This document shows positions 12,490 through 49,057 of a stretch of DNA of 64,000 nt, piece after piece. Source of the DNA: Nitrospira sp. (lineage in GTDB: Bacteria > Nitrospirota > Nitrospiria > Nitrospirales > Nitrospiraceae). The DNA lies in the NCBI GenBank assembly GCA_030123625.1, contig CP126121.1, positions 4,380,179 through 4,444,178 on the forward strand. The letters are read 5' to 3'. Each line of letters opens with the position of its first letter. Position 1 is the first letter of the stretch. Both the position numbers and the translations under genes were made by a program. Under the pieces are notes generated by a model. That model was not told the DNA's origin. It did not search any database and saw nothing but the letters and a program-made list of their open reading frames with translations.

Positions 12490-12681
12490 TCATAGTCCGC
12501 AGCCTCGCTTATTCACAGCCTTTCTCACGACAGGATCCCGCCGTGGGCTGCGCGTATTCAGCTCCCTCTCCAAAGTGGCGCGGATGAAACCACTCGTCGT
12601 GTATCCCTGTTGCTTGAGCGCGTCGAGCTGCTCCTTCAACTCGACAGGAAGTTGGACAACAATGCGAACGAGCTTTGACAT
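12490..12681 (-). CDS. Ribbon-helix-helix (CopG/Arc-like) protein
   Basis: A 63-residue protein; the start was set at MSKLVRIVVQLPVELKEQLD after a GGAG site. A beta strand (VRIVVQLP) followed by two helices (VELKEQLDALKQQGYTTSGF, IRATLERELN) is the ribbon-helix-helix layout. It is clearly similar to the 49-residue protein inside the integrated element at 39125-39274, sharing LDALKQQGYTTSGFIR versus LDGLKKQGYTIAGFVR. A stand-alone regulator, or an antitoxin that lost its toxin, is possible. The C-terminal RRDPVVRKAVNKRGCGL tail is basic. Confidence 0.65.
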   Translation of the reverse strand: MSKLVRIVVQLPVELKEQLDALKQQGYTTSGFIRATLERELNTRSPRRDPVVRKAVNKRGCGL

Positions 12682-31228: not shown

Positions 31229-31287
31229 TTGGTGCCCGGAGGGAGGGTCGAACTCCCACTCTCTTGCGAGAACCGGATTTTGAGTCC
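31229..31287. repeat. Left attachment site: duplicated tRNA-Leu 3' half
   Basis: These 59 bases are identical to 40455-40513. They run from TTGGTGCCCGGAGG (CCA end of the tRNA) to GATTTTGAGTCC (anticodon loop). After the last shared base the sequence diverges (CCATGC here, GGCGCG in the tRNA). It is therefore only a tRNA fragment and marks the distal end of the element. Confidence 0.95.
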
Positions 31288-31402
31288 CCATGCAGCATCG
31301 AGACTATGGATGTCATGAAGACCTATTCGTATAAATTCAGTGCCTTATACAGGACTTCTCGTACATGAAATGGAGCGTTTGTGTCAATGACAACTCATAG
31401 TC

Positions 31403-31423
31403 ATGGGACAATTTACGGGACAG
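31403..31423. promoter_or_regulatory. Paired integrase arm-site-like repeats, left end
   Basis: ATGGGACAA (31403-31411) and ACGGGACAG (31415-31423) form a direct pair 12 bases apart. The same octamer pair occurs at 32110-32128 (opposite orientation) and at 40378-40397 near the other end. A pair about one helical turn apart near each end is the layout of arm-type binding sites of tyrosine integrases. The function is inferred. Confidence 0.55.
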
Positions 31424-31433
31424 TGGAAAAGGA

Positions 31434-31964
31434 TTATTTACGTTTATTGCGTGGCGACCCTATGCCTAACAACAGGTGATTGATGTTTGCCATAAGCTCA
31501 TCAAACGCCCGCTCACCTCTCACCATGCACTTCTCGAAATCTTTGGGTGATGAGAGCTCAGGCGCAACACTCACGCCCCCGTCAAGGCTTTTAGGTTGGG
31601 AATGGGAAACTTTGTTGCGCACCTTGTTTACAGCCTTGATGTCTGCCGCGCATGAACCAGAAATCAGACCTGCCGCTTTCGCTATGTCAATTCGATTACT
31701 GAAAGTAACTCGCCTTATCGCCTCAGCAACTTGTCCTAATTTCCCTTTTAGACTTCCAGGACCGAGAAGCTGTACTGAGAGAATCGCCTCAATTGCACGG
31801 TCAAGCAATAAATGTAGAGCGAGCAATGAAGTCAAACGTTCGGCCGCTTCTTCACTATGCAGATGGAGAGCAGAACGAAATTTCATCCACCGATGTTTTT
31901 CCCAATTTTTCATGATGGCGTTTATTATCGTGTCTTTTGGATCTTTTGGCTCTTCAGGTGGCAT
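31434..31964 (-). CDS. HEPN-like (R-x4-H) protein, possible defence cargo
   Basis: A 176-residue mainly alpha-helical protein. The motif VRNKVSHSQ near residue 118 gives R-x4-H (RNKVSH), the catalytic signature of HEPN RNases, and follows a helical bundle (LALHLLLDRAIEAILSV, IDIAKAAGLISGS). I cannot name the exact family; DUF4145- and MAE_28990-type HEPN proteins have a similar shape. It is the only gene on the minus strand at this end and sits next to the attachment site, the usual place for cargo in islands. A toxin or abortive-infection function is possible, but a MltR-like or structural helical protein cannot be excluded. Confidence 0.5.
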   Translation of the reverse strand: MPPEEPKDPKDTIINAIMKNWEKHRWMKFRSALHLHSEEAAERLTSLLALHLLLDRAIEAILSVQLLGPGSLKGKLGQVAEAIRRVTFSNRIDIAKAAGLISGSCAADIKAVNKVRNKVSHSQPKSLDGGVSVAPELSSPKDFEKCMVRGERAFDELMANINHLLLGIGSPRNKRK

Positions 31965-32109
31965 GGTTCACCTACTCCAGTGTTTGAGTGACGGCGGGGC
32001 AGTCATACGCCAAAATCTTCGACAAATCCAATACTTCCCAAATACGCACCGGATTCCGTATCCGATTCGCGTCCATAAATGGTTAAATACACACATATTT
32101 TCAATGGCC

Positions 32110-32128
32110 TGTCCCATACTTGTCCCAT
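32110..32128. promoter_or_regulatory. Paired arm-site-like repeats, internal
   Basis: TGTCCCAT occurs twice (32110-32117 and 32121-32128), 11 bases apart, in the opposite orientation to the terminal pairs. It lies just upstream of the first plus-strand gene of the element, so regulator binding there is also possible. Confidence 0.45.
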
Positions 32129-32150
32129 AGTGATGAAAGGTGAAACTGCC

Positions 32151-32624
32151 ATGAAATCGCCAGGAAAACGACCGTATCAACGCCATGGACTGACTACCCT
32201 ACAGGCCGCTCTCAAGTCGGCATCAAGCGAGAGTGATTGGATTGACCGGCTTGGAACGGTCGGCGCTGAATTGAGGCAATGGCGGGCGGGACTGATTGCC
32301 GACCTCGGAGGTGATAGCGAAATTTCAGCAATGGAACGTTCCATTGTGGATCTTGCTACACAAACCTATGTGATGCTTTCCAGTGTAGACAGATTTCTGA
32401 TCGAGCAACCGTCACTCGTCAACAAGAGTCGGCGTAGTCTCTTTCCAGTCGTTCAACAACGACAAGCCTTAGCCGATGCCTTGGCTCGATATATGGGACA
32501 ACTAGGATTGAAAAAACGCACAAGGCCAGCCCATAGCCTTGCTGCACTCTTGGCCGGATCATCAACCACGCAGCAACCTGAACAGGAGGTGCCTCATGAG
32601 CCCATAGCAGACATTCCATCGTGA
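32151..32624 (+). CDS. Element protein of unknown function, terminase-small-subunit-like position
   Basis: A 157-residue protein; the start MKSPGKRPYQRHG has an AAAGGTGA site 8 bases upstream. It has a basic start, then helices LQAALKSASSESDWIDRLG, LRQWRAGLIADLGGDSEIS, AMERSIVDLATQTYVMLSS and VQQRQALADALARYMGQLGL. The C-terminus is Ser/Gln/Pro-rich. I recall similar short proteins in integrated elements of other phyla, always unnamed. The two-part helical form could suit a terminase small subunit, which the element otherwise lacks, but no HTH is evident. This remains a guess. Confidence 0.6.
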   Translation: MKSPGKRPYQRHGLTTLQAALKSASSESDWIDRLGTVGAELRQWRAGLIADLGGDSEISAMERSIVDLATQTYVMLSSVDRFLIEQPSLVNKSRRSLFPVVQQRQALADALARYMGQLGLKKRTRPAHSLAALLAGSSTTQQPEQEVPHEPIADIPS

Positions 32625-32659
32625 AGTGATAGTGATTTTTAACAGAATGGAGGTGTCCC

Positions 32660-32860
32660 ATGAGTGATGAGTACTTGAACAACCTGCACGAGGGCATCAT
32701 GCAGGTTCACGATGCCATGAGCGACCTGCTTCGGTCTTTGGGGCAGCGAGCCCAACTAGTGGCGGACTGTCGGCCAATCCTTGACGGGATGCACTACCAG
32801 CTCGATCGCTTACAAGACTCGATCAATTCCCTCGGCGAACAGATTCACTTCCGCCGCTAG
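32660..32860 (+). CDS. Small helical element protein, hypothetical
   Basis: A 66-residue protein with GGAGG 7 bases before the ATG. The sequence is almost wholly helical and amphipathic (LNNLHEGIMQVHDAMSDLLR, DGMHYQLDRLQDSINSLGEQ), suggesting a short coiled coil or a four-helix oligomer. It follows the previous gene by 35 bases and is probably co-transcribed. No family is recognised. Confidence 0.55.
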   Translation: MSDEYLNNLHEGIMQVHDAMSDLLRSLGQRAQLVADCRPILDGMHYQLDRLQDSINSLGEQIHFRR

Positions 32861-33162
32861 GCTGATCTTCAACCGTAGGGCGTCCGCTCTGCGGTTGAGG
32901 ATTGCGCGGTCTCTTGCGTGCGTCGCACCCACTTTCTCACTCCCTTCAAGTTCCCCTGAAACAATAATTTTCGTCTACCACTGGTAGAAGTTTGATGGCC
33001 TGATTCGATGAATCGGCTGTCTAGGAATGGTGTTTCTAAGTTTCACAATGGTCCCTTATGTACGTATTTCCCTTGCCATTGACAGATCGCGGGGAGGTGA
33101 GAATATGGGTAGTATGAGAAATGCGATGGACATTAACTTAATAACTAAAAACTAGGAGATTT
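32861..33162. other. Noncoding region with several dyads; possible control or origin region
   Basis: No gene is seen in these 302 bases. A 7-bp hairpin TCAACCG/CGGTTGA at about 32868-32897 may end the upstream unit. TCTACCACTGGTAGA (32974-32988) is a perfect 15-base palindrome, and GATTCGATGAATC (33002-33014) is another dyad. TTGACA (33079-33084) is followed 16-17 bases later by GAATATG, a candidate sigma-70 promoter for the HTH gene at 33163. It lies just upstream of the regulator and replication genes, where an operator or replication origin would be expected. Confidence 0.45.
33079..33107 (+). promoter_or_regulatory. Sigma-70-like promoter candidate for the regulator-replication genes
   Basis: TTGACA at 33079-33084 is a perfect -35. 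GAATAT or AATATG at 33101-33107 is a fair -10 at 16-17 bases spacing. The first gene downstream starts at 33163 with a TAGGAG ribosome-binding site. Confidence 0.45.
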
Positions 33163-33354
33163 ATGACACGCAAAACGCAAGCAAAAACCGATCCCACACT
33201 ACTCAGTGTGCGGCAGGTCTGCAAGAAATTCGGCATATCGGCTAACCATGTGTATCGACACGCGGAAGAGTGGCCCCACTACAAAATAGGCGGGGCCTTG
33301 CGGTTCAACAAAGAGGAACTGCTGGAATTTTTGAGAGTCAATCCACGGGGCTAA
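33163..33354 (+). CDS. Helix-turn-helix (AlpA/excisionase-type) protein
   Basis: A 63-residue MerR-like winged HTH protein. LLSVRQVCKKFGISANHVYR is the HTH, followed by WPHYKIGGALRFNKEELLEF, which is the standard wing and end helix of the HTH_17/excisionase family. Such proteins act as excisionases or as activators of element genes. It precedes the replication-type gene and is preceded by a promoter candidate. The other HTH gene of the element (38486) has the same fold but little sequence in common. Confidence 0.8.
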   Translation: MTRKTQAKTDPTLLSVRQVCKKFGISANHVYRHAEEWPHYKIGGALRFNKEELLEFLRVNPRG

Positions 33355-33373
33355 CCACAGCGAGGAACCAACG

Positions 33374-33703
33374 ATGAGCAAAGCAAAAAAGATGAAAACC
33401 TCAACCATGAATGACAATGAATTGCTCAACAGGATGCTTGAGTTAACCGACCGAATCACGAGTGATGGGCTACCGCATAACCCAGGCTGGATGTTCCTCA
33501 TGTCAACTCGGCCTGCAATCCAGCAACTAGGAAGTGATGGCTTCATCGTGGCGATGGCCGCAGCGTCCTTGACTGAACACCCTACGGAGGGATGCCAGGC
33601 GAGTTATGAGCAAATCCTTCAGCGAGCGGCAACCATCAAAGACATGGTGGCGCTCATCAAGCAAGTGGGCGCTCAACGAATCGCTCGCATGCTTAAGGCG
33701 TAA
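33374..33703 (+). CDS. Element protein, hypothetical (109 aa)
   Basis: A basic N-terminus (MSKAKKMKTSTMND) is followed by ELLNRMLELTDRITSDGLPH, PGWMFLMSTRPAIQQLGSDG, FIVAMAAASLTEHPTEGCQ and a helical end AATIKDMVALIKQVGAQRIA. The protein appears soluble and helical. I recognise no family. The gene fits between the HTH and replication genes with spacings of 19 and 11 bases, so it is probably in the same transcript and may aid replication. Confidence 0.55.
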   Translation: MSKAKKMKTSTMNDNELLNRMLELTDRITSDGLPHNPGWMFLMSTRPAIQQLGSDGFIVAMAAASLTEHPTEGCQASYEQILQRAATIKDMVALIKQVGAQRIARMLKA

Positions 33704-33714
33704 GGAGCCAGAAC

Positions 33715-34749
33715 ATGGCACGGTGGAGAAAGATCGCTGTCCGCATCGCGAAAGATGAAAAGTTTAAACAGCTTTCAGTGAAAGGAAAACTGGTTTGGTT
33801 TGGTCTGTTGACAAGCGAACACCTGACACCGATGGGGGCTGGTTGCATCTATCCCGCCATGCTAGCCGATGACCTTGGGTTGACGGAACAAGATATCGAA
33901 TTGTCGCTTAGCCAATTCGCAGAATTGGGTATGGTCTTGGTTGATGGTCGGCTGGTCATTGTCAAGAATTACCTGCTGCCTGATTACAACGGACCAGAGA
34001 ATCCGTCTCAGCTCGTCGGCTGGATTGAAGCTTGTGAGGGGCTCCCATCGTCGAATCAATTTGCCGTCCTGCGTGAGCATCTACGCGCCAGGCTCAACGG
34101 AAGCCCGAAGTGGCTCTTCTCTGGACTGCTTGATCCGCTCGCACAAGGCAGTGCTTTAGGGCTTAAACGGTTATTTTGGGATCGCACTGGCTGTGAGAAA
34201 CCAACGGGCAGGAAAGACCAACTGAGACAGGTGTCTAGACAGGTGTCTAAACAGGTCCCCAGACAACAGGAGCAGGAACAGAAAAAGAGAAGAAATACTT
34301 GTTCAGCTTCGCTGAACGAGTGCGCAACTTTTTCTCAAGAAGAGAAGAATCGGCGTTCAAACAATCAACACGCCGATTCCGACAAATTACGTGACGCAAT
34401 TTCGGAGAAGAAAAGACAACCCCCCTCCCCCCCTTCGCGGGCCGGGGGCCAGTTCGCGGGGCCTGGGGGCGGGCGTACGCCGGATGAAATGTTTCCGATT
34501 TTCTACGAAGCCTACCCTCGCCATGAGCACCGACTACGCGCAAGGGAAGTTTTCATGAGTCGCTCGTTAGGCGTGGATTGGGAGTTGTTGCAGAAAATGC
34601 TCCGCGCAATCGAGGTGGCGAAGCGCACAGAGTGGAATGGCATTGAGAAGCGATTTATTCCACTGCCTGAGAATTGGCTCAAGGCGAGGGGCTGGGAAAA
34701 CGAGTACGCCGAACCCAAGAAGGAAGTCACCTTGCGGAGTGTGTTGTGA
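33715..34749 (+). CDS. Replication-initiator-like protein with winged helix
   Basis: A 344-residue protein. The N-terminal 120 residues read like DnaD/DnaT-type or phage O-type proteins: ARWRKIAVRIAKDEKFKQLS, KGKLVWFGLLTSEHLTPMGA, LADDLGLTEQDIELSLSQFA, LGMVLVDGRLVIVKNYLLP. The middle (residues 165-260) is low complexity, rich in Gln, Arg, Ser and Pro. The end has MFPIFYEAYPRHEHRLRARE and FIPLPENWLKARGWENEY, a small domain often found at the C-terminus of phage replication proteins. It probably recognises the element origin and recruits the host helicase. No helicase or primase is in the element. Confidence 0.7.
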   Translation: MARWRKIAVRIAKDEKFKQLSVKGKLVWFGLLTSEHLTPMGAGCIYPAMLADDLGLTEQDIELSLSQFAELGMVLVDGRLVIVKNYLLPDYNGPENPSQLVGWIEACEGLPSSNQFAVLREHLRARLNGSPKWLFSGLLDPLAQGSALGLKRLFWDRTGCEKPTGRKDQLRQVSRQVSKQVPRQQEQEQKKRRNTCSASLNECATFSQEEKNRRSNNQHADSDKLRDAISEKKRQPPSPPSRAGGQFAGPGGGRTPDEMFPIFYEAYPRHEHRLRAREVFMSRSLGVDWELLQKMLRAIEVAKRTEWNGIEKRFIPLPENWLKARGWENEYAEPKKEVTLRSVL

Positions 34750-34863
34750 GGACTTTCATGGGTTGTTTCAAAAGGGGAGTGGCTAGGTTGGTATTCGCCG
34801 GGAATATTTTTTCACAAAACGCGAGCTAGGCAGGGGGTTTTCACCAAGAAAGGGCTATTCCAC

Positions 34864-35040
34864 ATGAAGGTACTGACACCGTTGAAGGCTATCAGGGCTA
34901 AATGTCTCGATTGTAGCTGTTATCAGCCGAAGGAAGTTCGGGAGTGTCGGATCATGACATGCAGCCTTTGGCCGTATCGCTTAGGCCACCGTCCGGCCAC
35001 GCTGGAAAAGAAGCAGGCCGAGGAACTGGTTGAGGCATGA
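34864..35040 (+). CDS. Four-cysteine phage-type zinc-binding protein
   Basis: A 58-residue protein. KAIRAKCLDCSCYQPKEVRE and CRIMTCSLWPYRLGHRP give CxxC...C...C, a pattern common in small phage and island proteins (IRAKCLDC...EVREC...CPLYPYR). It probably binds one zinc. In prophages it often lies near replication or packaging genes; its role is not known. Here it is 114 bases after the replication gene and upstream of the terminase. Confidence 0.7.
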   Translation: MKVLTPLKAIRAKCLDCSCYQPKEVRECRIMTCSLWPYRLGHRPATLEKKQAEELVEA

Positions 35041-35110
35041 ACGAGTGTTTTGAATCCAAGGCAGGTGGCAATCTCAGGCGTCCGATCCAGCGCCCGAGGT
35101 TGTTCCAGCA

Positions 35111-35260
35111 ATGGAGCCGGGCCAATCCTTCCCGGTCGCCTGCCCCAAACAAGGCTGTGGAGTGCGGGCGGCGGGTTTACCCCTTTTCCCCGCCAAGCGC
35201 ATCCGAAGGGGCCAGACTGCTCCCTGGCTTCCACAGTCCCCTTTGAGCGTATGGAGTTGA
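35111..35260 (+). CDS. Possible 49-aa protein upstream of terminase
   Basis: A short frame starting MEPGQSFPVACPKQGCGVRA and ending 7 bases before the terminase ATG. It has one CPKQGC pair and a basic middle (PAKRIRRGQ). Two other frames of the same stretch are also open, so the coding signal is weak. One of them starts with an ATGA overlap after the zinc protein (35037) and gives an Arg/Pro-rich product with no known pattern. Position is the main argument for any of them. Confidence 0.25.
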   Translation: MEPGQSFPVACPKQGCGVRAAGLPLFPAKRIRRGQTAPWLPQSPLSVWS

Positions 35261-35267
35261 TGACGTG

Positions 35268-36662
35268 ATGCAGAACCGTCTAACCATTATCGATCAACTG
35301 AAGCACCCGCAATTACTCGGCGCTCTGCCTGTCTTCCGTGATCTGAAGACCTGGGCGATGTGGCTCGTATTCTTGAAGGCTCTGTTTGGCCTGCCATTGG
35401 ATTCGATCGAGTTGGAGGCCTTCCAAAAGTTCACGGGCCGAGAACGCTATCTTCCGCCAGAAGGTGGGTTCCCTGAAGCGTGTGTCATCGCTGGCGTGCA
35501 ATGCGGCAAAACGACAATCACCGGTGCATTGCTCGATTCCGAAGTATTGACAGGACAGGCCGGAACCGTGGCGGTCGGAGTCGCCCAAGATCATCGTGGG
35601 AGTATGCGTGTCTTATTGCGATATGCCCGAGAGCCGTTTGAGACCATCGAGATTTTCAAGAATGAAGTGGAACGTGATACGGCCGATTTTTTGGAACTGA
35701 AGCGCGGCACCGCACTCGGTGCGTACCCATGCCGACCGTCTGCCTTGCGAGGCGTGAAGGCGTCAATCGTGGTGATGGACGAAGCCGCGCATTACATCGC
35801 CACAGATGGGCGGCCCACCGATCTTGAGATGTGGCGGGTGGCTCGTGGGCGTGTTGCCATGACTAGCGGAAAGATCATTGCGATCAGTTCACCCTATGCC
35901 CAATCCGGCTTACTCTATGACCTGCACAAGAAACATTTCGGCAAAGATGAGTCGCCTGTCTTGGTGTGGCAAGCCTCATCGAAGGACATGAACCCTTGCC
36001 TTTCAGACGACTATCTACAACGGATGCAGGAAGACGATCCTGAAGCCTATCGCTCAGAGGTGCTGGGGGAATTTCGCTCAGGCACAAGCACCCTTCTGGA
36101 TATGGAAGCCATACAAGCCTGTGTGGATGCTGACGTTCGTGAACGTGCACCGATGAGTGAGACTACATACGTAGGTTTTTGCGATCCATCAGGCGGACGG
36201 CATGATCGGTTTGTGGTGGCGGTTGCGCATGCGGATGGTGAGCGAGTTGTCCTTGATGCCGTGCGGGTATGGACTCCTCCCCTGAACCCATCTGGCGTGA
36301 TTGCCGAGGCGTGCGCATTCCTCAAAACTTATCGCGTGTCGCAGGTCCATGGGGATCGATATGGAGCGGAGTACAACGCTGAACAGTTTCGCAAAAACGG
36401 CCTGAGCTATGAACCGTCTGAACGGGATCGATCTGAGATTTACCTTGAGTTGCTCCCCCTGATTAATAGCGAGCGGGCGGTGTTACTCGATCATGCTGAA
36501 TTGCTTCGCGAGCTACGCGGATTGGAGCGCCGACGAGGAACGAGCGGAAAAGACAAAGTGGACCACCGTAGGGGTTCAACAGACGATATCGCAAACGCCA
36601 GTGCTGGCGCGTTGGTCTTAGCTAATAAACCCCTGTGCGTGTGTGGAGTGTTCGTACTATGA
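35268..36662 (+). CDS. terL: Phage terminase large subunit
   Basis: A 464-residue packaging motor. Walker A is CVIAGVQCGKTTITGALL (about residues 75-92), Walker B is ASIVVMDEAAHYIA, and IIAISSPYAQSGLLYDLH is the coupling motif. The nuclease domain of RNase H type has the acidic residues in YVGFCDPSGGRHDRFVVAVA, VHGDRYGAEYNAEQF and STDDIANASAGALVLAN. The length is normal for the family. A GTG codon lies directly before the ATG. It cuts and pumps DNA into a prohead, docking on a portal ring, but no portal gene is seen in the element. The stop overlaps the next ATG by ATGA. Confidence 0.93.
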   Translation: MQNRLTIIDQLKHPQLLGALPVFRDLKTWAMWLVFLKALFGLPLDSIELEAFQKFTGRERYLPPEGGFPEACVIAGVQCGKTTITGALLDSEVLTGQAGTVAVGVAQDHRGSMRVLLRYAREPFETIEIFKNEVERDTADFLELKRGTALGAYPCRPSALRGVKASIVVMDEAAHYIATDGRPTDLEMWRVARGRVAMTSGKIIAISSPYAQSGLLYDLHKKHFGKDESPVLVWQASSKDMNPCLSDDYLQRMQEDDPEAYRSEVLGEFRSGTSTLLDMEAIQACVDADVRERAPMSETTYVGFCDPSGGRHDRFVVAVAHADGERVVLDAVRVWTPPLNPSGVIAEACAFLKTYRVSQVHGDRYGAEYNAEQFRKNGLSYEPSERDRSEIYLELLPLINSERAVLLDHAELLRELRGLERRRGTSGKDKVDHRRGSTDDIANASAGALVLANKPLCVCGVFVL

Positions 36663-36865
36663 CGCCTCTCGACAGACAGAAGTCTGGGAGCAATCCAACA
36701 GGCTTCAATGCCTATCGAGATGCGCCACCTGTGCCGATGCAGGGCCAACATCGGCTGTGCGCGAACGGTTCAGATGCCGGAGTCAGGCTTTTCGCCCATG
36801 ACACCAGAGGCATCCGTGGACGGTTCAACTGTGCCGGTTCGGTCAACCGGATTGTGCTTAGCTGA
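36659..36865 (+). CDS. Small ORF coupled to terminase, hypothetical (68 aa)
   Basis: The start overlaps the terminase stop (ATGA), which suggests translational coupling. The product MTPLDRQKSGSNPTGFNAYR...RIVLS is polar, with one PPVPMQGQH stretch and two Cys. It sits where phages usually encode the portal, but is far too short to be one. No family is known. Codon pattern is not decisive. Confidence 0.4.
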   Translation: MTPLDRQKSGSNPTGFNAYRDAPPVPMQGQHRLCANGSDAGVRLFAHDTRGIRGRFNCAGSVNRIVLS

Positions 36866-36894
36866 TTTTACTTAACAGAGAAGGAAACTGCATC

Positions 36895-38115
36895 ATGGAT
36901 ACGTTAGAAACTAACTTGGTCATCATCAAGGATGGCCTTCAAACAATGGTCAAAGGTCAGGAGGATCATGAAAAACGCATTCACGGCATCGAGGCTTATT
37001 TGAATGATAAGAAGAGACTGGGCTTTCCCGGTTTCTCAACTGTTGGCATGGGTACTGTTACGAAGGAACAGGTTGCGACCAAGATCGTACAGATGGGCAT
37101 TGCTAACGCCATGCAGCGCGAAGGCTGTAGGGACAGCTTCCAGCGTGCCGGGTTCTCGTCCTACGATGAGAAGATGATTCTCGACGCTCAGCAAAAGGCC
37201 ATGGACACGGGCACGTCCGGTTCTGGCGGTGGTTACATCGTGCCTTCTCAGTGGGTAGCGGTGCTCATTGAGATGCTACGGGCAAAGATGGTGACGGTGC
37301 GGGCCGGAGCTACCCTCATGCAAGGGTTGACGGGATCACCGGTGACCATCCCGAAGCAGTTGACTAGCTCAAGTCTGTATTGGATTGGGCAAAACGCCAA
37401 CATTACCCAGTCTGATCCTACCTTCGGGCAGGTGCAGATGACGCCGAAGACCTTGGCAGCAAGGGCGCAATATTCCAACTTGCTTGGGATTTTGTCTAAT
37501 CCGCAGATGGAGCAAATCATCCGTAATGACTTCATGCAGATTGCAGCCTTGGAACTGGACCGCGTGGCCTTGCGCGGGTCAGGGTCGTCCAATCAACCAT
37601 TGGGCGTTGCAAATGCAGCAGGGGTTTCAAATTATGCGATCGGCACGAACGGCGGCGCGTTACAGATCGATCATTTGTATGATTTGATCGGCGCGTTAGA
37701 TGACGCCGACATACCGCTTGACAGTCTTGCTGTAATCACTCATCCCAAAGCCCTTCGCAAGCTGAAAAAATCCCGCGTAGCGCAATTCAGCGGCGACACG
37801 GGCGGGTCATACATCCTCCCGCCACTCTTGACCGATGAAGCCTTGTCTAAGGCAATCGGGCTACAGTGTCTGTCCACAACGCAATTGCCGGTGAACCTGA
37901 CCAAGGGTTCTTCGAGCGATTGTACGGAAGTCTACTGCGGCAACTGGGCTGATCTACTGATCGGCCAGTGGGGTTCTGTCGAAATTTTAGCGACGAACAT
38001 CGGCGGCAATGCTTGGGCTCAAAATGCCATTGAGGTACGGCTCATTATGAACGTGGATGTTCAAGTGAGACACGCTCAAAGCTTCGTGCTCTGCAACGAT
38101 GCACGGACGGCCTAA
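36895..38115 (+). CDS. HK97-type major capsid protein
   Basis: A 406-residue protein. The first 45 residues form a charged helix (LVIIKDGLQTMVKGQEDHEK) like the delta domain of HK97 gp5. Then comes a long arm (TVTKEQVATKIVQMGIANAM), the N-arm/E-loop zone (GGGYIVPSQWVAVLIEMLRA), the spine helix region EQIIRNDFMQIAALELDRVA, the P-domain signature LRGSGSSNQPLGVANAAGV and the A-domain end NAIEVRLIMNVDVQVRHAQS. AGAGGAA-type RBS sequence lies close before the ATG. The family forms T-number icosahedral shells. No prohead protease gene accompanies it, so the helical N-terminus may stay in place or be cut by a helper protease. Confidence 0.92.
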   Translation: MDTLETNLVIIKDGLQTMVKGQEDHEKRIHGIEAYLNDKKRLGFPGFSTVGMGTVTKEQVATKIVQMGIANAMQREGCRDSFQRAGFSSYDEKMILDAQQKAMDTGTSGSGGGYIVPSQWVAVLIEMLRAKMVTVRAGATLMQGLTGSPVTIPKQLTSSSLYWIGQNANITQSDPTFGQVQMTPKTLAARAQYSNLLGILSNPQMEQIIRNDFMQIAALELDRVALRGSGSSNQPLGVANAAGVSNYAIGTNGGALQIDHLYDLIGALDDADIPLDSLAVITHPKALRKLKKSRVAQFSGDTGGSYILPPLLTDEALSKAIGLQCLSTTQLPVNLTKGSSSDCTEVYCGNWADLLIGQWGSVEILATNIGGNAWAQNAIEVRLIMNVDVQVRHAQSFVLCNDARTA

Positions 38116-38123
38116 GTAGGCAT

Positions 38124-38155
38124 GGGTGGGTAGAGCGTCACAGCCCTACCCACCC
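38124..38155 (+). terminator. Strong hairpin after the capsid gene
   Basis: GGGTGGGTAG and CTACCCACCC form a perfect 10-bp stem with a 12-base loop, starting 9 bases after the capsid stop. No T run follows, so it is either a weak terminator, an RNA stabiliser for the abundant capsid message, or a processing site. The next gene starts at 38169. Confidence 0.55.
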
Positions 38156-38168
38156 CGAAGGGAACATC

Positions 38169-38477
38169 ATGCAAGACGAAAATCTCTGGAATGAGCTGTG
38201 TCGGTCCATGAGTTGGCGTGAGTTATTGAATGAGTACAACGAAGCCTTGTTGCGCATCGATCGATACACCATTGCCAATCTTGAGGTTGATGTACCCCTC
38301 GCCGTGCGCGAAGTCTGTCAGAGGTTGATCATGCTGCATGGGGACGTGCAACGAGTGGCGAGTACGAAAGGGATGCTCGATCAACCGGCCCCGCTGGAAG
38401 CCGTGAAGGTGATTATGCGGGTGGTCGGTCGGGTTCGGCGGGAGGTGCCATTGGTTGAACATTTGGGGAATGCGTGA
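38169..38477 (+). CDS. Element protein, hypothetical (102 aa)
   Basis: A helical 102-residue protein (WNELCRSMSWRELLNEYNEA, VDVPLAVREVCQRLIMLHGD, APLEAVKVIMRVVGRVRREV). It has an AAGGGAA site 8 bases before the ATG. It overlaps the next frame start at 38474 by ATGA-like context, but the better start of that gene is at 38486. No family is recognised. A head-related accessory role is possible from position. Confidence 0.5.
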   Translation: MQDENLWNELCRSMSWRELLNEYNEALLRIDRYTIANLEVDVPLAVREVCQRLIMLHGDVQRVASTKGMLDQPAPLEAVKVIMRVVGRVRREVPLVEHLGNA

Positions 38478-38485
38478 GGGGGAAC

Positions 38486-38824
38486 ATGAACGAGCAACAA
38501 ACGTTTGAGCAGATCGTCACAAACTTAGAGCAGATGGTCGGGCAAGCCTCAGCCTCTGTCGTGCCTCTGTTGGTCGGCGCATTTTCACGGTTACAGGCGA
38601 CGGTACAGCTTCGATTGAAATCATGCTGCGCCGACTCCCCTACCCCTCAGCCGGTTCAGGCCGATCGATACTTGACGGTGCCAGAGGTGATGGAACGGTT
38701 TCATGTGTCGGCCCAATGGCTGTATCGTCACAAGCGACAGTTGCCGCATAGTCAGCCGTCCAGAAAGGTCTTGCTCTTTCCTGAGAAGGCGATTGAGCGA
38801 TGGTTTGCAGCGCGGAAGGCGTGA
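38486..38824 (+). CDS. Helix-turn-helix protein with N-terminal helical domain
   Basis: A 112-residue protein; MNEQQTFEQIV follows GAGGGGG by 3-4 bases. Residues 1-50 form a helical region, and residues 60-112 are an AlpA/excisionase-type HTH: RYLTVPEVMERFHVSAQWLY, then RHKRQLPHSQPSRKVLLFPE and KAIERWF. It may be the excisionase partner of the integrase, given the location near the integrase end, while the HTH at 33163 may regulate replication. This division is inferred. Confidence 0.7.
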   Translation: MNEQQTFEQIVTNLEQMVGQASASVVPLLVGAFSRLQATVQLRLKSCCADSPTPQPVQADRYLTVPEVMERFHVSAQWLYRHKRQLPHSQPSRKVLLFPEKAIERWFAARKA

Positions 38825-38829
38825 GGCGG

Positions 38830-39018
38830 TTACTTGTTTTTAGGGAGTTTCCCAGCGCGTTCTAATTCCTGAATCCGATCTTCTGCGAGTTGCAACAGCC
38901 ACTCAACGGACGATTTCTTTTCTGCAGCAGCAGCCATCTTGATACGGAAGAACAGGTCTTCCGGCACCTTCCGAAGGTTAAACACTTTCAATTTTGGCTT
39001 TTTGATGAAGATAGCCAC
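38830..39018 (-). CDS. Ribbon-helix-helix (Arc-like) protein, minus strand
   Basis: A 62-residue protein with FNLRKVPEDLFFRIKMAAAA, EKKSSVEWLLQLAEDRIQEL and a basic end GKLPKNK: one strand and two helices, as in Arc/MetJ-type repressors and antitoxins. The start is uncertain. GTG at 39018 (VAIFIKKPKLKVF) was chosen; the frame is open upstream to 39174 but passes through the operator-like palindrome at 39073. No toxin partner lies beside it. Confidence 0.65.
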   Translation of the reverse strand: MAIFIKKPKLKVFNLRKVPEDLFFRIKMAAAAEKKSSVEWLLQLAEDRIQELERAGKLPKNK

Positions 39019-39072
39019 GGGTCGGAGACTAGCAAACTCAAGCCTACGAGTAAATACGATATTGTATTGGAG

Positions 39073-39088
39073 TGTATCATATGATACA
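39073..39088. promoter_or_regulatory. 16-base palindrome between opposed regulator genes
   Basis: TGTATCATATGATACA is a perfect 16-base palindrome in the space between the two divergent ribbon-helix-helix genes (38830-39018 minus and 39125-39274 plus). Proteins of this class bind short symmetric operators as dimers, so it is a good candidate for the binding site of one or both. Confidence 0.6.
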
Positions 39089-39124
39089 TATGCTCTAGAT
39101 GATTCAAATGAAGGAGTGGAGCCT

Positions 39125-39274
39125 ATGCGGTCAATCACTGTCCCGATCAAGTTTCCGGCTGATCTGAAGCACAAGCTCGATGGGTTGAAGAAGCAGGGCT
39201 ATACCATTGCCGGGTTTGTGCGCCGTGCCGTCACGCGAGAGTTAGCGAACCATCACCGTACACAAAAAGGATGA
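39125..39274 (+). CDS. Ribbon-helix-helix protein, plus strand (49 aa)
   Basis: MRSITVPIKFPADLKHKLDG, then LKKQGYTIAGFVRRAVTREL. The fold is a strand and two helices, CopG/Arc type. AAGGAG lies 9 bases before the ATG. It is closely similar to the chromosomal protein at 12490-12681, sharing QGYT and GF.R on either side of the turn. It is immediately upstream of the integrase, so it may repress or activate integrase expression. Confidence 0.75.
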   Translation: MRSITVPIKFPADLKHKLDGLKKQGYTIAGFVRRAVTRELANHHRTQKG

Positions 39275-39307
39275 ATGGGCCCCATCACTCACCACCGAGG
39301 AATGATG

Positions 39308-40432
39308 ATGGACGCACGAACTGAACGAGGCCGAGGGCGGATCTATCAACGCGGGTCGATCTGGTGGATTCAGTATTTCTTCAACGGGCAGGATCGGCGC
39401 GAATCAACCCACTCATCTAACCGTAAAGTCGCTGAAAAACTCTTAACCAAACGAATGGCCGCCAAGGATGCCGGAACACTCCAAGAGGTCACCCTTCGCC
39501 GGTTGCGGTTTGAGGATCTACAAGCGAGCATTGAAGGGGAATATCAACTCAATCGGCGCAAGTCCTTGGATCGGGTGCAGGACGCCTTTCAAGCTCTGAG
39601 TCGGACCTTCGCCGGGTGGCTCGCGTCTGCAATTACTGAAGATCGATTGACCAAGTATGCCAACAGTCGCATTGATGAAGAAAAAGCTGCGCATGCGACC
39701 GTGCGGTATGAGCTGGCAGTCTTGAAGCGGGCGTTTCGTCTGGCTAAAGTTCCTTGTCCGCCATTCCCATCAATCCAGGTCCGCAACGCTCGGACCGGCT
39801 TCTTTGAACGTCAAGACTTTGAAGCCGTCTTGACGCACCTTCCGGCCTATCTTCGCCCTGTCATGCGTGTATCGTATCTCACTGGGTGGCGGACTCTCAG
39901 TGAAGTGTTACCCCTGCAATGGAGACAGATTGATTTACAGGCGGGATTGATCCGACCCGATCCAGGCACCACCAAGAACGGAGAAGGCCGATTGTTCCCC
40001 TTTCAGTCCCTACCTGGCTTGGCGGAAGTGATTCAATCGCAGTGGGAGGCCGCTCAGGAGATCCAGCGTGGACGAGGTGTCATTGTGCCGTGGGTCTTCT
40101 TTCGAGTCACGCACAAGGCCATTGAACCGATTAAGAGCTACAAGACGGCATGGGCGACAGCCTGTCAAACTGCCGGTATTCCCGATCGACTAGTGCATGA
40201 TCTTCGGCGTACGGCTGCCCGTAATCTTCGCCGTGCTGGTATCCCTGAAAGTGTGGCAATGGAGCTACTCGGACATAAAACGCCAGAAATCTTCCGGCGC
40301 TATGACATCAAGAACGAGCAGGATTTAACCCATGCCGTGGAGAAATTGGCGGCGTTCCATGCCCATGAGGCCCAACTACGGGACAATCATGGGACAATTA
40401 CGCCGATTCGTACAGGAGCCGGGAAACCGTGA
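39308..40432 (+). CDS. int: Tyrosine-type site-specific integrase
   Basis: A 374-residue recombinase; the third of three tandem ATGs was chosen because GAGGA lies 7 bases before it. The N-terminal part has an Arg-rich arm-binding domain (GRGRIYQRGSIWWIQYFFNG), then a SAM-like core-binding domain. The catalytic domain has Arg in SYLTGWRTLSEVLPLQW, Lys in GTTKNGEGR, HDLRR in RLVHDLRRTAARNLRR, His in LLGHKTPEIF and Tyr in RRYDIKN. It inserts and removes the element at the tRNA-Leu 3' end. It lies next to the intact tRNA. The 3' end of the coding region contains an arm-like repeat pair at 40378-40397. Confidence 0.93.
   Translation: MDARTERGRGRIYQRGSIWWIQYFFNGQDRRESTHSSNRKVAEKLLTKRMAAKDAGTLQEVTLRRLRFEDLQASIEGEYQLNRRKSLDRVQDAFQALSRTFAGWLASAITEDRLTKYANSRIDEEKAAHATVRYELAVLKRAFRLAKVPCPPFPSIQVRNARTGFFERQDFEAVLTHLPAYLRPVMRVSYLTGWRTLSEVLPLQWRQIDLQAGLIRPDPGTTKNGEGRLFPFQSLPGLAEVIQSQWEAAQEIQRGRGVIVPWVFFRVTHKAIEPIKSYKTAWATACQTAGIPDRLVHDLRRTAARNLRRAGIPESVAMELLGHKTPEIFRRYDIKNEQDLTHAVEKLAAFHAHEAQLRDNHGTITPIRTGAGKP
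40378..40397. promoter_or_regulatory. Paired integrase arm-site-like repeats, right end
   Basis: ACGGGACAA (40378-40386) and ATGGGACAA (40389-40397) are a direct pair 11 bases apart, inside the last codons of the integrase. They match the pair at 31403-31423, so both element ends carry the same motif. Confidence 0.55.
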
Positions 40433-40454
40433 GGCGTGTAAGTAATTGGTTTTC

Positions 40455-40513
40455 TTGGTGCCCGGAGGGAGGGTCGAACTCCCACTCTCTTGCGAGAACC
40501 GGATTTTGAGTCC
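40455..40513. repeat. Right attachment site within tRNA-Leu
   Basis: Identical to 31229-31287 over 59 bases. It spans the 3' half of the intact tRNA-Leu gene from the CCA end to the anticodon loop. Confidence 0.95.
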
Positions 40514-40542
40514 GGCGCGTCTGCCAGTTCCGCCATCCGGGC
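40456..40542 (-). tRNA. tRNA-Leu (anticodon CAA)
   Basis: An 87-base tRNA including encoded CCA. The acceptor stem pairs GCCCGGA with TCCGGGC. The anticodon stem CCGGA/TCCGG encloses CTCAAAA, giving anticodon CAA, which reads UUG. A long variable arm (TTCTCGCAAGAGAG-like) marks a class II tRNA, and GTTCGAC is the T loop. It is the attachment site of the integrated element and stays intact. Confidence 0.95.
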
Positions 40543-44428: not shown

Positions 44429-44698
44429 ATGCAAACACACCGACACCTCTGGGACACCTACCGCTTTCCAGGTTTCCGGCCAACTCCCATAGGACAAGGT
44501 ATCTTCGGTGACCCGAAGGCCCGCGTCATCCACCTGTGCAGGCGGGGGAAAAAACGGCATGCGGCGCGTGTGGGCAGGTCGTTCGGTCCTGGTACGACCG
44601 CAAGACACGGCGCGTGCGCGACCTGCCCTGCGGGGACACACGGGTCTACCTGGCGGTGGAGATTCGTCGCGTCGAGTGCAAGACGTGCGGCAAGGTGA
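44429..44698 (+). other. Frame overlapping the ISL3 transposase start
   Basis: An open frame begins MQTHRHLWDTYRFPGFRPTP and passes through GDPKARVIHLCRRGKKR before entering the transposase region in a different frame. A G5A6 tract (44544-44554) lies at the overlap; a -1 shift there would join this segment to the transposase frame. The first 40 residues recur in my memory with ISL3-type elements, but I cannot tell whether they are translated. Beyond residue 45 the frame is a shadow of the transposase. Confidence 0.3.
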
Positions 44699-45654
44699 AG
44701 CAGGAAACCTTGGATTGGCTGGCAGACCATCGGTTCTACACCAAACGCTTCGCCTTTTTCGTGGGACGGCGCTGCCGGGCCATGACGATCAAGGACGTCG
44801 CTGAGGAAACCAGGCTGGACTGGAAAACGATCAAGGCCCTCGACAAGCCGTACATGCAGGAACAGTTGCGTCGCGCGGGCACCCCGGCTCCACAGATAGT
44901 CGGGATCGACGAGATCGCGATTCGCAAGGGGCACACCTACCGGATCGTGGTGAGCGACTTGGCACGACGGCGGCCCATCTGGTTCGGCGGCAAGGACCGC
45001 CCAGAAGCGAGTATGGACGAGTTCTACCAGTGGCTGGGCGGGTCGAAGAGCAAGAAGATACGGCTGGCCGTGATGGACATGTGGAAAGCGTTTCGCAATT
45101 CGACGCGTAAGCCGGAGCCCGCGCCCCAAGCCGCCATCTTGTTCGACAAGTTCCATGTGTTGCGGCATCTCGGCCAGGCGTTGGACACGGTGCGCAAGGC
45201 TGAGTACCACCGGGTAACGGGGAAGGATCAGCGGTTCATCAAGGGCCAGAAGTACACGCTACTCTCGCACCGGCAAAACCTCAAGTCGGATGGGCGGCGA
45301 AGCCTGCGGTTCCTGCTGAAGGCCAACAGGTGGTTGAACACGGCCTACCTGCTCAAGGAGGAGTTCGGGCAACTCTGGGACTACGAGCGGGAAGGCTGGG
45401 CTCGTCGCTTCTTCGAGAACTGGCGCGCCTCACTGAAGTGGCAACGCCTGAAGCCCTACGAGAAGTTTGCCGAGATGATCGACCGGCATTGGGAGGGTAT
45501 CGCGGCCTCCTGCAAGCCGGAGAACAAAATCGCCCTAGGATTCGTCGAAGGTATGAACAACAAGATCCGTGTCATGCAGCGGCGGAGTTACGGCTTACGC
45601 GACGAACAGTACCTGCGCCTAAAAGTCCTCACCTGCATGCTCGACCCAATATGA
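44536..45654 (+). CDS. ISL3-family transposase
   Basis: A 372-residue transposase with a GTG start, complete to the C-terminus. An N-terminal zinc-binding part (CGACGQVV and CKTCGKVKQE) leads to the HTH (KDVAEETRLDWKTIKALDK) and the DDE domain: VGIDEIAIRKGHTYRIVVSD, LAVMDMWKAFRNSTR, ILFDKFHVLRHLGQALDTVR, and ALGFVEGMNNKIRVMQRRSY with the final Glu. YGLRDEQYLRLKVL is the typical end. Confidence 0.93.
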   Translation: MQAGEKTACGACGQVVRSWYDRKTRRVRDLPCGDTRVYLAVEIRRVECKTCGKVKQETLDWLADHRFYTKRFAFFVGRRCRAMTIKDVAEETRLDWKTIKALDKPYMQEQLRRAGTPAPQIVGIDEIAIRKGHTYRIVVSDLARRRPIWFGGKDRPEASMDEFYQWLGGSKSKKIRLAVMDMWKAFRNSTRKPEPAPQAAILFDKFHVLRHLGQALDTVRKAEYHRVTGKDQRFIKGQKYTLLSHRQNLKSDGRRSLRFLLKANRWLNTAYLLKEEFGQLWDYEREGWARRFFENWRASLKWQRLKPYEKFAEMIDRHWEGIAASCKPENKIALGFVEGMNNKIRVMQRRSYGLRDEQYLRLKVLTCMLDPI

Positions 45655-48117: not shown

Positions 48118-49057
48118 GACCTCTTGCATAACCATCTGTTCAGGCTTTCCATGCCTGGGGGAATATGCTTCCATGATTTCCACTGGACAGAGGAGGCACC
48201 GTCATGGAAATACAGGGGGTTGAAGGCCTGCCGGATGCGACGTTTCGGCGACTGACGGGGGTTCGGAAGCGAACATTTATTGAGATGCTGTCCGTTCTGC
48301 ACACCGCTGAGGCTCACCTGAGGCTCACCGCAAAGCGCGGGGTGGGAAGCCGAATCCTTTGGCCGTCGCAACGCGACTCGTGATGACGCTGGAGTACTGG
48401 CGTGAATACCGTACGTCTCTCCACATTGGGCACAGCTACGGAGTCAGTGAGAGTACGGCCTATCGCAACATCCGCTGGTGCGAGGACACGCTCATCAAGA
48501 GTGGGGCGTTCACGCTTCCTGGCAAGAAAGCCCTCGTCACCAGTGACCGGACGGATGAAATTATCCTCATCGACGCGACGGAAACACCCGTGGAACGACC
48601 CCCAAAAAACAGCGTCGCCACTACTCGGGCAAGAAAAAACGCCATACGCTGAAGACCCAGCTTGTCGTCGACAAGGCAATGGGCACGATCATTGGCCTCG
48701 CGCACGCCGCCGGCCGTCGGCATGACTTCCGCTTGCTCAAGGAGTCCGGCGTGAGGCTCCATCCCGCCACCCATGCCGTCACGGACACCGGCTACCGGGG
48801 CCTACAGAAACTGCATGGCAACACCACGATGCCAAAAAAGCGCAGCAAAAAGAATCCTCTGACTGCGGACGACAAGCGGCACAACCGTGCCATCTCCAGA
48901 AACCGCATCCTTGCAGAGAACGTCATTGGCGTTGTGAAACGCTTCAAGATTGTCTCCGACCGATACCGAAACCGCAGAAGGCGCTTTGGCCTGCGCTTTA
49001 CGCTCATTGCTGCAGCATACAACAAGGACTTGTCACCATGAAGTTATGCAAGAGGTC
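48118..49057 (+). mobile_element. IS5-family insertion sequence (IS427-like) with TA duplication
   Basis: A 940-base element with 15-bp perfect terminal inverted repeats (GACCTCTTGCATAAC at 48118-48132 and its reverse complement at 49043-49057). TA flanks both ends (48116-48117, 49058-49059). The two-frame transposase with an A AAA AAC site and the TA duplication fit the IS427 subgroup. It is inserted in or next to the DUF4258-like fragment. Confidence 0.88.
48204..49041 (+). pseudogene. IS5-family transposase, with programmed and accidental frame changes
   Basis: Frame 1 (from ATG 48204, GAGG upstream) gives LPDATFRRLTGVRKRTFIEM. It loses frame at the GGGG run 48339-48342, one G short; frame 2 then gives LAVATRLVMTLEYWREYRTS, LHIGHSYGVSESTAYRNIRW and IILIDATETPVERPPKN. 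There the heptamer A AAA AAC in CCA AAA AAC allows a -1 shift into frame 3: KKQRRHYSGKKKRHTLKTQL, VTDTGYRGLQKLH and ISRNRILAENVIGVVKRFKI with the end DRYRNRRRRFGLRFTLIAAA. The DDE residues are in LIDATE, DTGYRG and AENVIG. The early G-run deletion makes the gene defective unless it is a read error. Confidence 0.8.

Follow-up and report, generated by a model that had tools for sequence, protein, structure and literature searches.

Introduction

In the immI region of phage P22, which encodes the small ribbon-helix-helix (RHH) repressors Mnt and Arc, mnt and the arc-ant operon are laid out divergently, and arc precedes the controlled gene, ant. In lambda, cI is expressed from a leaderless mRNA that starts at PRM, beside the operon that it silences, and RHH antitoxins of the FitAB and other types have palindromic operators. 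Satellites of the PICI class use AlpA and Stl as control genes. In P22, Mnt represses arc and ant, and Arc inhibits mnt and moderates ant (PMC11016777, PMC7549136; see also PMC8022706).

The locus considered here lies in a window of 64,000 nucleotides, i.e., the whole stretch of DNA that was analysed, from a Nitrospira genome. It resembles P22 immI in having a divergent pair of small RHH genes, the second of which heads the operon that would be controlled, as judged here from gene order. Unlike immI, it has a recombinase in place of the antirepressor ant, no ant gene being recognised, and it has one main palindrome, situated in the promoter of the RHH gene on the plus strand (plus RHH). In related loci plus RHH is sometimes absent, and its product bears no visible sequence relation to P22 Arc. 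By analogy, the module may work like immI, and we do not count it as a member of that system. With lambda cI and PRM it shares a repressor that seems to be translated from a leaderless mRNA and is encoded next to the silenced operon, a likeness that we infer from promoter spacing; unlike cI, the repressor would be an RHH rather than an HTH protein, and the recombinase would apparently be controlled directly. In the open-licence literature we found no description of this module or of integration control in Nitrospira elements.

Results

A tRNA-Leu element carrying a divergent RHH pair

The host genome is a single contig of 4.69 Mb. Within the window, a repeat search identified a 9.2-kb element bracketed by a 59-bp direct repeat, the two copies of which (31229-31287 and 40455-40513) are putative att sites; the right copy overlaps a tRNA-Leu gene (40456-40542, minus strand). 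Besides the RHH pair, the element carries genes for a terminase, a major capsid protein and a replication-initiator-like protein, two HTH_17 genes, and the gene of a tyrosine integrase (39275-40432, plus strand; Phage_integrase E=4.5e-16, phrog_1 E=8.8e-37), which starts at 39275 or slightly later. In gene content it is like PICI satellites, i.e., an element of this size at a tRNA gene with an integrase and replication-initiator-like and HTH genes. Unlike PICIs, the stretch from 31229 to 40513 encodes a major capsid protein and the large subunit of a terminase, and its control genes differ from AlpA and Stl. No portal or tail gene was found among 13 element ORFs scanned, a subset of its ORFs, and the element may be a satellite with a capsid gene or else the remnant of a prophage. 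Transposase-like ORFs, judged by eye from the ORF list, lie downstream of it at 44536-45654 and 48204-49041.

The original prediction of two short divergent RHH genes around a perfect 16-bp palindrome beside an integrase was confirmed, with the palindrome TGTATCATATGATACA, a putative operator, at 39073-39088. On the plus strand, plus RHH (39125-39274, 49 amino acids) is the presumed first gene of the integrase operon and is preceded by the Shine-Dalgarno sequence AAGGAG (39111-39116, score 5 of 6). On the minus strand lies the second RHH gene (minus RHH, 38830-39018, 62 amino acids, GTG start), which encodes the proposed Mnt/Arc/FitA-like repressor and is convergent with an excisionase- or regulator-like HTH_17 gene (38486-38824, plus strand; HTH_17 E=3.8e-8, phrog_66 E=3.3e-6). 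The minus ORF opens at 39174 and the start that fits its relatives is the GTG at 39018-39016; we consider this start the most likely because relatives align there and because TGCTAGTCT lies 7 nt upstream of it, as it does in relatives. A second, weaker relative of plus RHH is present far from the element (12553-12669, minus strand; 44% identity over 39 residues). Weak matches of this type recur in many genomes of the genus and perhaps represent a conserved chromosomal RHH gene.

The two proteins

Against library families, the RHH proteins of the window gave weak matches or none. The minus protein was aligned in 38 rows (the window and 37 relatives), in which R16, K27, G56 and P59 are invariant and P19 is nearly so. 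The profile of this family matches the antitoxin VapB12 as its best solved relative (E=6.5e-6) and aligns weakly with Mnt (E=0.15), and PHROG 2639, an Arc-like repressor family, was matched by 8 of the 38 members. An AlphaFold monomer of the minus protein (pLDDT 87) has helices at residues 20-32 and 37-55 after an extended N-terminal segment with no strand assigned, and Foldseek returned mostly RHH proteins for it, with Arc, VapB12, FitA and PutA among the top matches and none at E<=0.001. The minus protein is thus predicted to adopt the RHH fold.

The plus protein, a candidate RHH protein, aligns with 36 relatives, and its AlphaFold monomer likewise shows two helices after an extended N-terminal segment with no strand assigned. 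Its matches were weaker: phrog_949 at E=0.01, solved RHH structures limited to ParD in Foldseek (E=4.2 and 7.8), RHH_1 matched by one of 37 family members (E=4.6e-5), and AvtR at E=0.28 by sequence. In one group of ten close relatives, which excludes the window, pN averages 0.07 for either gene, whereas pS averages 0.69 for the minus gene and 0.53 for the plus gene, with a median dN/dS of 0.05 for each; by these measures both proteins are under purifying selection. Both genes appear to be genuine.

The minus protein shares its fold class with FitAB-type and other RHH antitoxins, and membership in a toxin-antitoxin pair of the FitA, VapB or RelB type could explain why FitA-like_RHH was matched by 9 and ParD by 8 of the 38 family members, and why VapB12 is the best solved match. 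Type II systems such as FitAB and VapBC differ, however, in having a conserved adjacent toxin. Same-strand ORFs of at least 55 amino acids lie within 200 nt downstream of the minus gene in 30 of 44 loci, and the largest group of similar ORFs among them has two members; in the window, the neighbouring gene on that side is convergent. With a conserved partner gene not found among the 44 loci, we rejected the antitoxin reading as highly improbable.

Occurrence of the pair and linkage to recombinases

Of 98 genomes searched, 44 gave matches to plus RHH and 24 to minus RHH. When 395 genomes from the phylum were searched with a profile, minus RHH was recovered in 46, 45 of them within the order of the window. 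The 72 loci examined yielded 73 minus matches, 47 plus matches and 45 divergent pairs. Six loci (L048-L053) were included because they already looked paired, while the other 38 non-window pairs come from 60 stretches picked for a minus match, weaker profile matches being included in part. One pair (L099) was dropped as no start codon could be assigned, leaving 44 pairs with assignable starts (the window and 43 in Nitrospira-related genomes), some of them machine-guessed (L049, L105). The intergenic gap in these pairs is 87-178 bp, with a median of 106 bp. One genome (G412) holds seven minus matches (L105, L108, L115, L117, L128, L141 and L142), and the DNA-contact strands of the six that are readable differ. 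Peptide-pattern scans of viral contigs found no relatives, and neither did searches of phage records with the minus protein of the window or of plasmid records with that of L107.

In 38 of the 44 pairs, plus RHH is followed on its strand by a recombinase gene no more than 4.5 kb away (30 tyrosine and 8 serine; 21 within 400 nt), a classification rather than an independent test, as the recombinase models were built from proteins of 20 of the same loci. At the equivalent position beside the minus gene, none was found in any of the 44. A Pfam check of ten downstream ORFs identified recombinases in all ten, and in two of the six pairs without a recombinase the contig continues for no more than 142 bp (L100) and 706 bp (L105). 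By sequence comparison, the RHH pair is a conserved module linked to recombinases across many loci.

The location of plus RHH directly before the recombinase, at a distance of 6 nt in many tyrosine loci, would suit an Xis-like recombination directionality factor needed for excision, with the minus protein acting as the regulator at the palindrome. It would be odd, however, for a recombinase-specific factor that a single plus family precedes the 30 tyrosine as well as the 8 serine enzymes, and the element has other excisionase-like genes of the HTH_17 type. We regard such a role of plus RHH as unlikely.

Promoters and a recurrent inverted repeat

For the minus gene, a putative -10 element (TGC-TAGTCT on the minus strand, 39026-39031) lies 7 nt before the GTG, with a putative -35 element (TTTACT, 39049-39054, minus strand) across a 17-nt spacer, recognised by eye in comparison with relatives. 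In 32 of 44 loci, TGnTA, the mark of an extended -10 box, lies 5-11 nt upstream of the minus start codon (shuffles gave a mean of 1.3 loci and a maximum of 5), and in 29 it lies at 7-9 nt, a distance at which the transcript would begin at or beside the start codon. A Shine-Dalgarno score of at least 5 of 6 was reached by 4 of 44 minus genes versus 39 of 44 plus genes. The spacing of the -10 element and the rarity of Shine-Dalgarno sequences suggest that the minus mRNA is leaderless.

For the plus operon, TTGACA is present 51-93 nt before the plus start in 31 of 44 pairs, against a shuffled mean of 1.6. At about this position the window has a weak putative -35 element (TTGTAT, 39062-39067, plus strand), followed by a putative -10 element identified by eye (TACATA, 39085-39090, plus strand) that the operator overlaps; a consensus promoter scan of the window found no promoter at the plus operon. 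Among 21 loci with both an inverted repeat and TTGAC, the distance between the start of the -35 element and the centre of the repeat is 17-20 bp in 14, eight of which form one group of close relatives, and the columns +24 T and +25 A after TTGAC are conserved in 33 relatives. At this distance the repeat would lie over the spacer and the -10 element of the plus promoter.

About one perfect 16-bp palindrome is expected by chance per 64 kb, so that the palindrome is unremarkable by itself; for a gap of about 106 bp, the same simple arithmetic gives 0.001-0.002. At up to three mismatches it is the sole site in the window, and the 4.69-Mb genome holds one exact site among three places at up to two mismatches. 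The two places with two mismatches are copies of TGTATCGTCTGATACA in the same genome (L058, 2653-2668 and 3196-3211), 543 bp apart, which by eye look like repeated coding sequence. In the operator region of the window, one of 100 dinucleotide shuffles scored at least as high for an inverted repeat (p=0.02). The stronger evidence is the recurrence of a palindrome at the same place in related loci. Between 75 and 10 nt upstream of the plus start, 23 of 44 pairs have an inverted repeat that exceeds dinucleotide shuffles at p<=0.05, where 2.2 are expected; in the other 21 it was no better than shuffles. Among controls, which comprised 150 randomly drawn regions upstream of other ORFs from the same loci, less one dropped for containing N, 10 of 149 reached this level. 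The recurrence across loci and the control regions rule out a chance palindrome.

Operator sequences differ between loci, examples being ACTATCATATGATAGT (L096), ACATCATATGATGT (L048), TGTATCAATTGATACA (L113) and CATATCATGATATG (L121). The intergenic regions of L107, L114 and L116 contain three alternating half-sites (TGTATCA, TGATACA, TGTATCA) rather than two, which suggests cooperative binding by more than one dimer. The pattern TGTAT...ATACA in the window is like the E. coli SOS box, as would be expected if the palindrome were the site of a host regulator such as LexA. Against this, the spacing of the arms is 2 bp off that of the SOS box, and the operator varies between loci along with the neighbouring repressor. 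With a single exact site in the genome, we set the host-regulator reading aside as barely credible.

Which protein matches the operator

To place the minus contact strand, we take it to correspond to Arc residues 9, 11 and 13. Compared by eye, contact strands pair with recurring operator types: WNFREVP with ACATCA, WNFRDIP with CTATCA, N[IL]R at several loci with TGTATCA and WIFRD at three loci with CATATCA, with exceptions that include L118 and L123-L126, whose N[IL]R strand is not accompanied by TGTATCA pairs. Operator similarity correlated with similarity of the minus strand (r=0.208, p=0.0003, n=44; r=0.127, p=0.006, n=34) and with that of the plus strand (r=0.149, p=0.005, n=44; r=0.088, p=0.058, n=34), and under the strictest thinning (n=32) the two were equal (minus r=0.090, plus r=0.101, both p=0.04). 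Correlations with whole-protein identity were significant for either protein only before thinning.

Among 97 pairs of loci with the same minus strand and different plus strands, 42 shared at least 9 bp of operator; 20 of these 42 are comparisons between the ACATCA and CTATCA groups, which have a common 10-bp core. The corresponding count was 0 of 15 where the plus strand was the same and the minus strand different, 10 of the 15 involving one locus (L053), and 67 of 523 where neither strand was the same; pairwise operator-protein comparisons of this kind are not independent. The operator type tends to follow the DNA-contact strand of the minus protein, with modest statistical support.

We also considered whether identical repressors avoid each other within a genome. 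The scripted count (0 of 36 pairs versus 0.93 expected) was uninformative; a strand was assigned to 64 of the 73 minus genes, and for at least three (L092, L093, L101) the assignment was wrong. L092 and L101, both in genome G007, carry the same contact strand, so that at least one identical within-genome pair exists.

Loci in which plus RHH was not found bear on the same question. L109 combines minus RHH and a palindrome (p=0.02) with a serine recombinase at 130 nt, and L134 combines them (p=0.05) with an integrase at 122 nt. The minus protein of L134 is the closest relative found of that in the window (34 of 57 residues identical, 60%), and its operator, TGATACA-C-TGTATCA, uses the window half-sites GATACA and TGTATC in everted orientation. 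By eye, half-sites are likewise everted relative to the window in L103 and L110. L115 resembles L109 and L134 by eye, with a repeat at p=0.06 and an integrase cut by the contig end, while L090 has kept a palindrome with neither plus RHH nor a recombinase detected. Among the 28 unpaired minus genes altogether, nine have no assignable start, eight have a divergent recombinase and four pass the repeat test; many of these copies may have decayed. In L054, a different short gene (RHH_3 below cut-off) occupies the place of minus RHH, and by eye another palindrome precedes a similar plus RHH.

Given the covariation of the operator with the minus protein and the loci without plus RHH, we favour the minus protein as the operator binder, although the plus protein may bind as well. 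A converse arrangement, in which plus RHH is the sole autorepressor on the palindrome and the minus gene is functionally unrelated, would fit the position of the palindrome in the plus promoter, and autorepression is common among RHH proteins. It is very unlikely, as covariation favours the minus protein in most tests, L109 and L134 have the palindrome without plus RHH, and the minus gene is kept in place under purifying selection.

A further explanation, in line with the original prediction, is a two-repressor toggle, in which the palindrome is bound by either RHH protein and each represses the promoter of the other, as is partly the case for Arc and Mnt in P22. It would be consistent with the closeness of the opposed -35 regions, judged by eye, with the correlation between operator and plus strand in the full set, and with P22, where Arc inhibits mnt expression and moderates ant (PMC11016777). 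However, L109 and L134 retain the palindrome without plus RHH, none of the 15 pairs with the same plus and different minus strands shares at least 9 bp, even if 10 of them involve L053, and the putative -10 and -35 elements of the minus gene both lie outside the palindrome in the window. We consider a toggle rather improbable. The palindrome before a recombinase in loci without plus RHH and an operator that follows the minus protein make one-way repression by the minus protein the simpler reading. The predicted divergent RHH pair with an operator between its genes was therefore borne out as a conserved, recombinase-linked arrangement at many loci, whereas the notion of one operator common to both proteins found no such support, since the operator tends to follow the minus protein and the palindrome persists without plus RHH at L109, L134 and L115.

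Discussion

Divergent anatomy, operator position and recombinase linkage are conserved among the sequences compared. Taken jointly, we think it somewhat probable that, via the palindrome in the plus promoter, the minus protein acts as a repressor of the operon formed by plus RHH and the recombinase. The minus gene would be expressed as a Mnt/Arc-like repressor from a near-leaderless transcript, and dimers of this protein would bind the TGTATC/GATACA palindrome, covering the spacer and the -10 element of the plus promoter. The operon of plus RHH and integrase would thereby be silenced and the integrated element would stay put. Upon entry into a cell free of the repressor, the operon would fire and integrase would be made, after which the repressor would accumulate. 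In this scheme plus RHH would probably have a secondary role, in feedback regulation of its own operon. The further roles raised in the original prediction, a decision between integration and excision or a response to a helper, are speculative.

More tentatively, the pair could constitute a portable immunity unit of Nitrospirota mobile elements based on a leaderless repressor, in which one RHH family and an operator embedded in the promoter spacer guard unrelated tyrosine and serine recombinases. Repeated joint changes of repressor strand and operator would then create immunity groups that decide which elements may integrate in a cell where another is resident, a proposal that we regard as possible and still doubtful. 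If true, the unit would predict mutual exclusion between elements, and its loci would provide a natural series of matched repressor and operator variants from which RHH-DNA specificity could be learned. It would also mean that a Mnt/Arc-like arrangement guards recombinases instead of an antirepressor in these elements.
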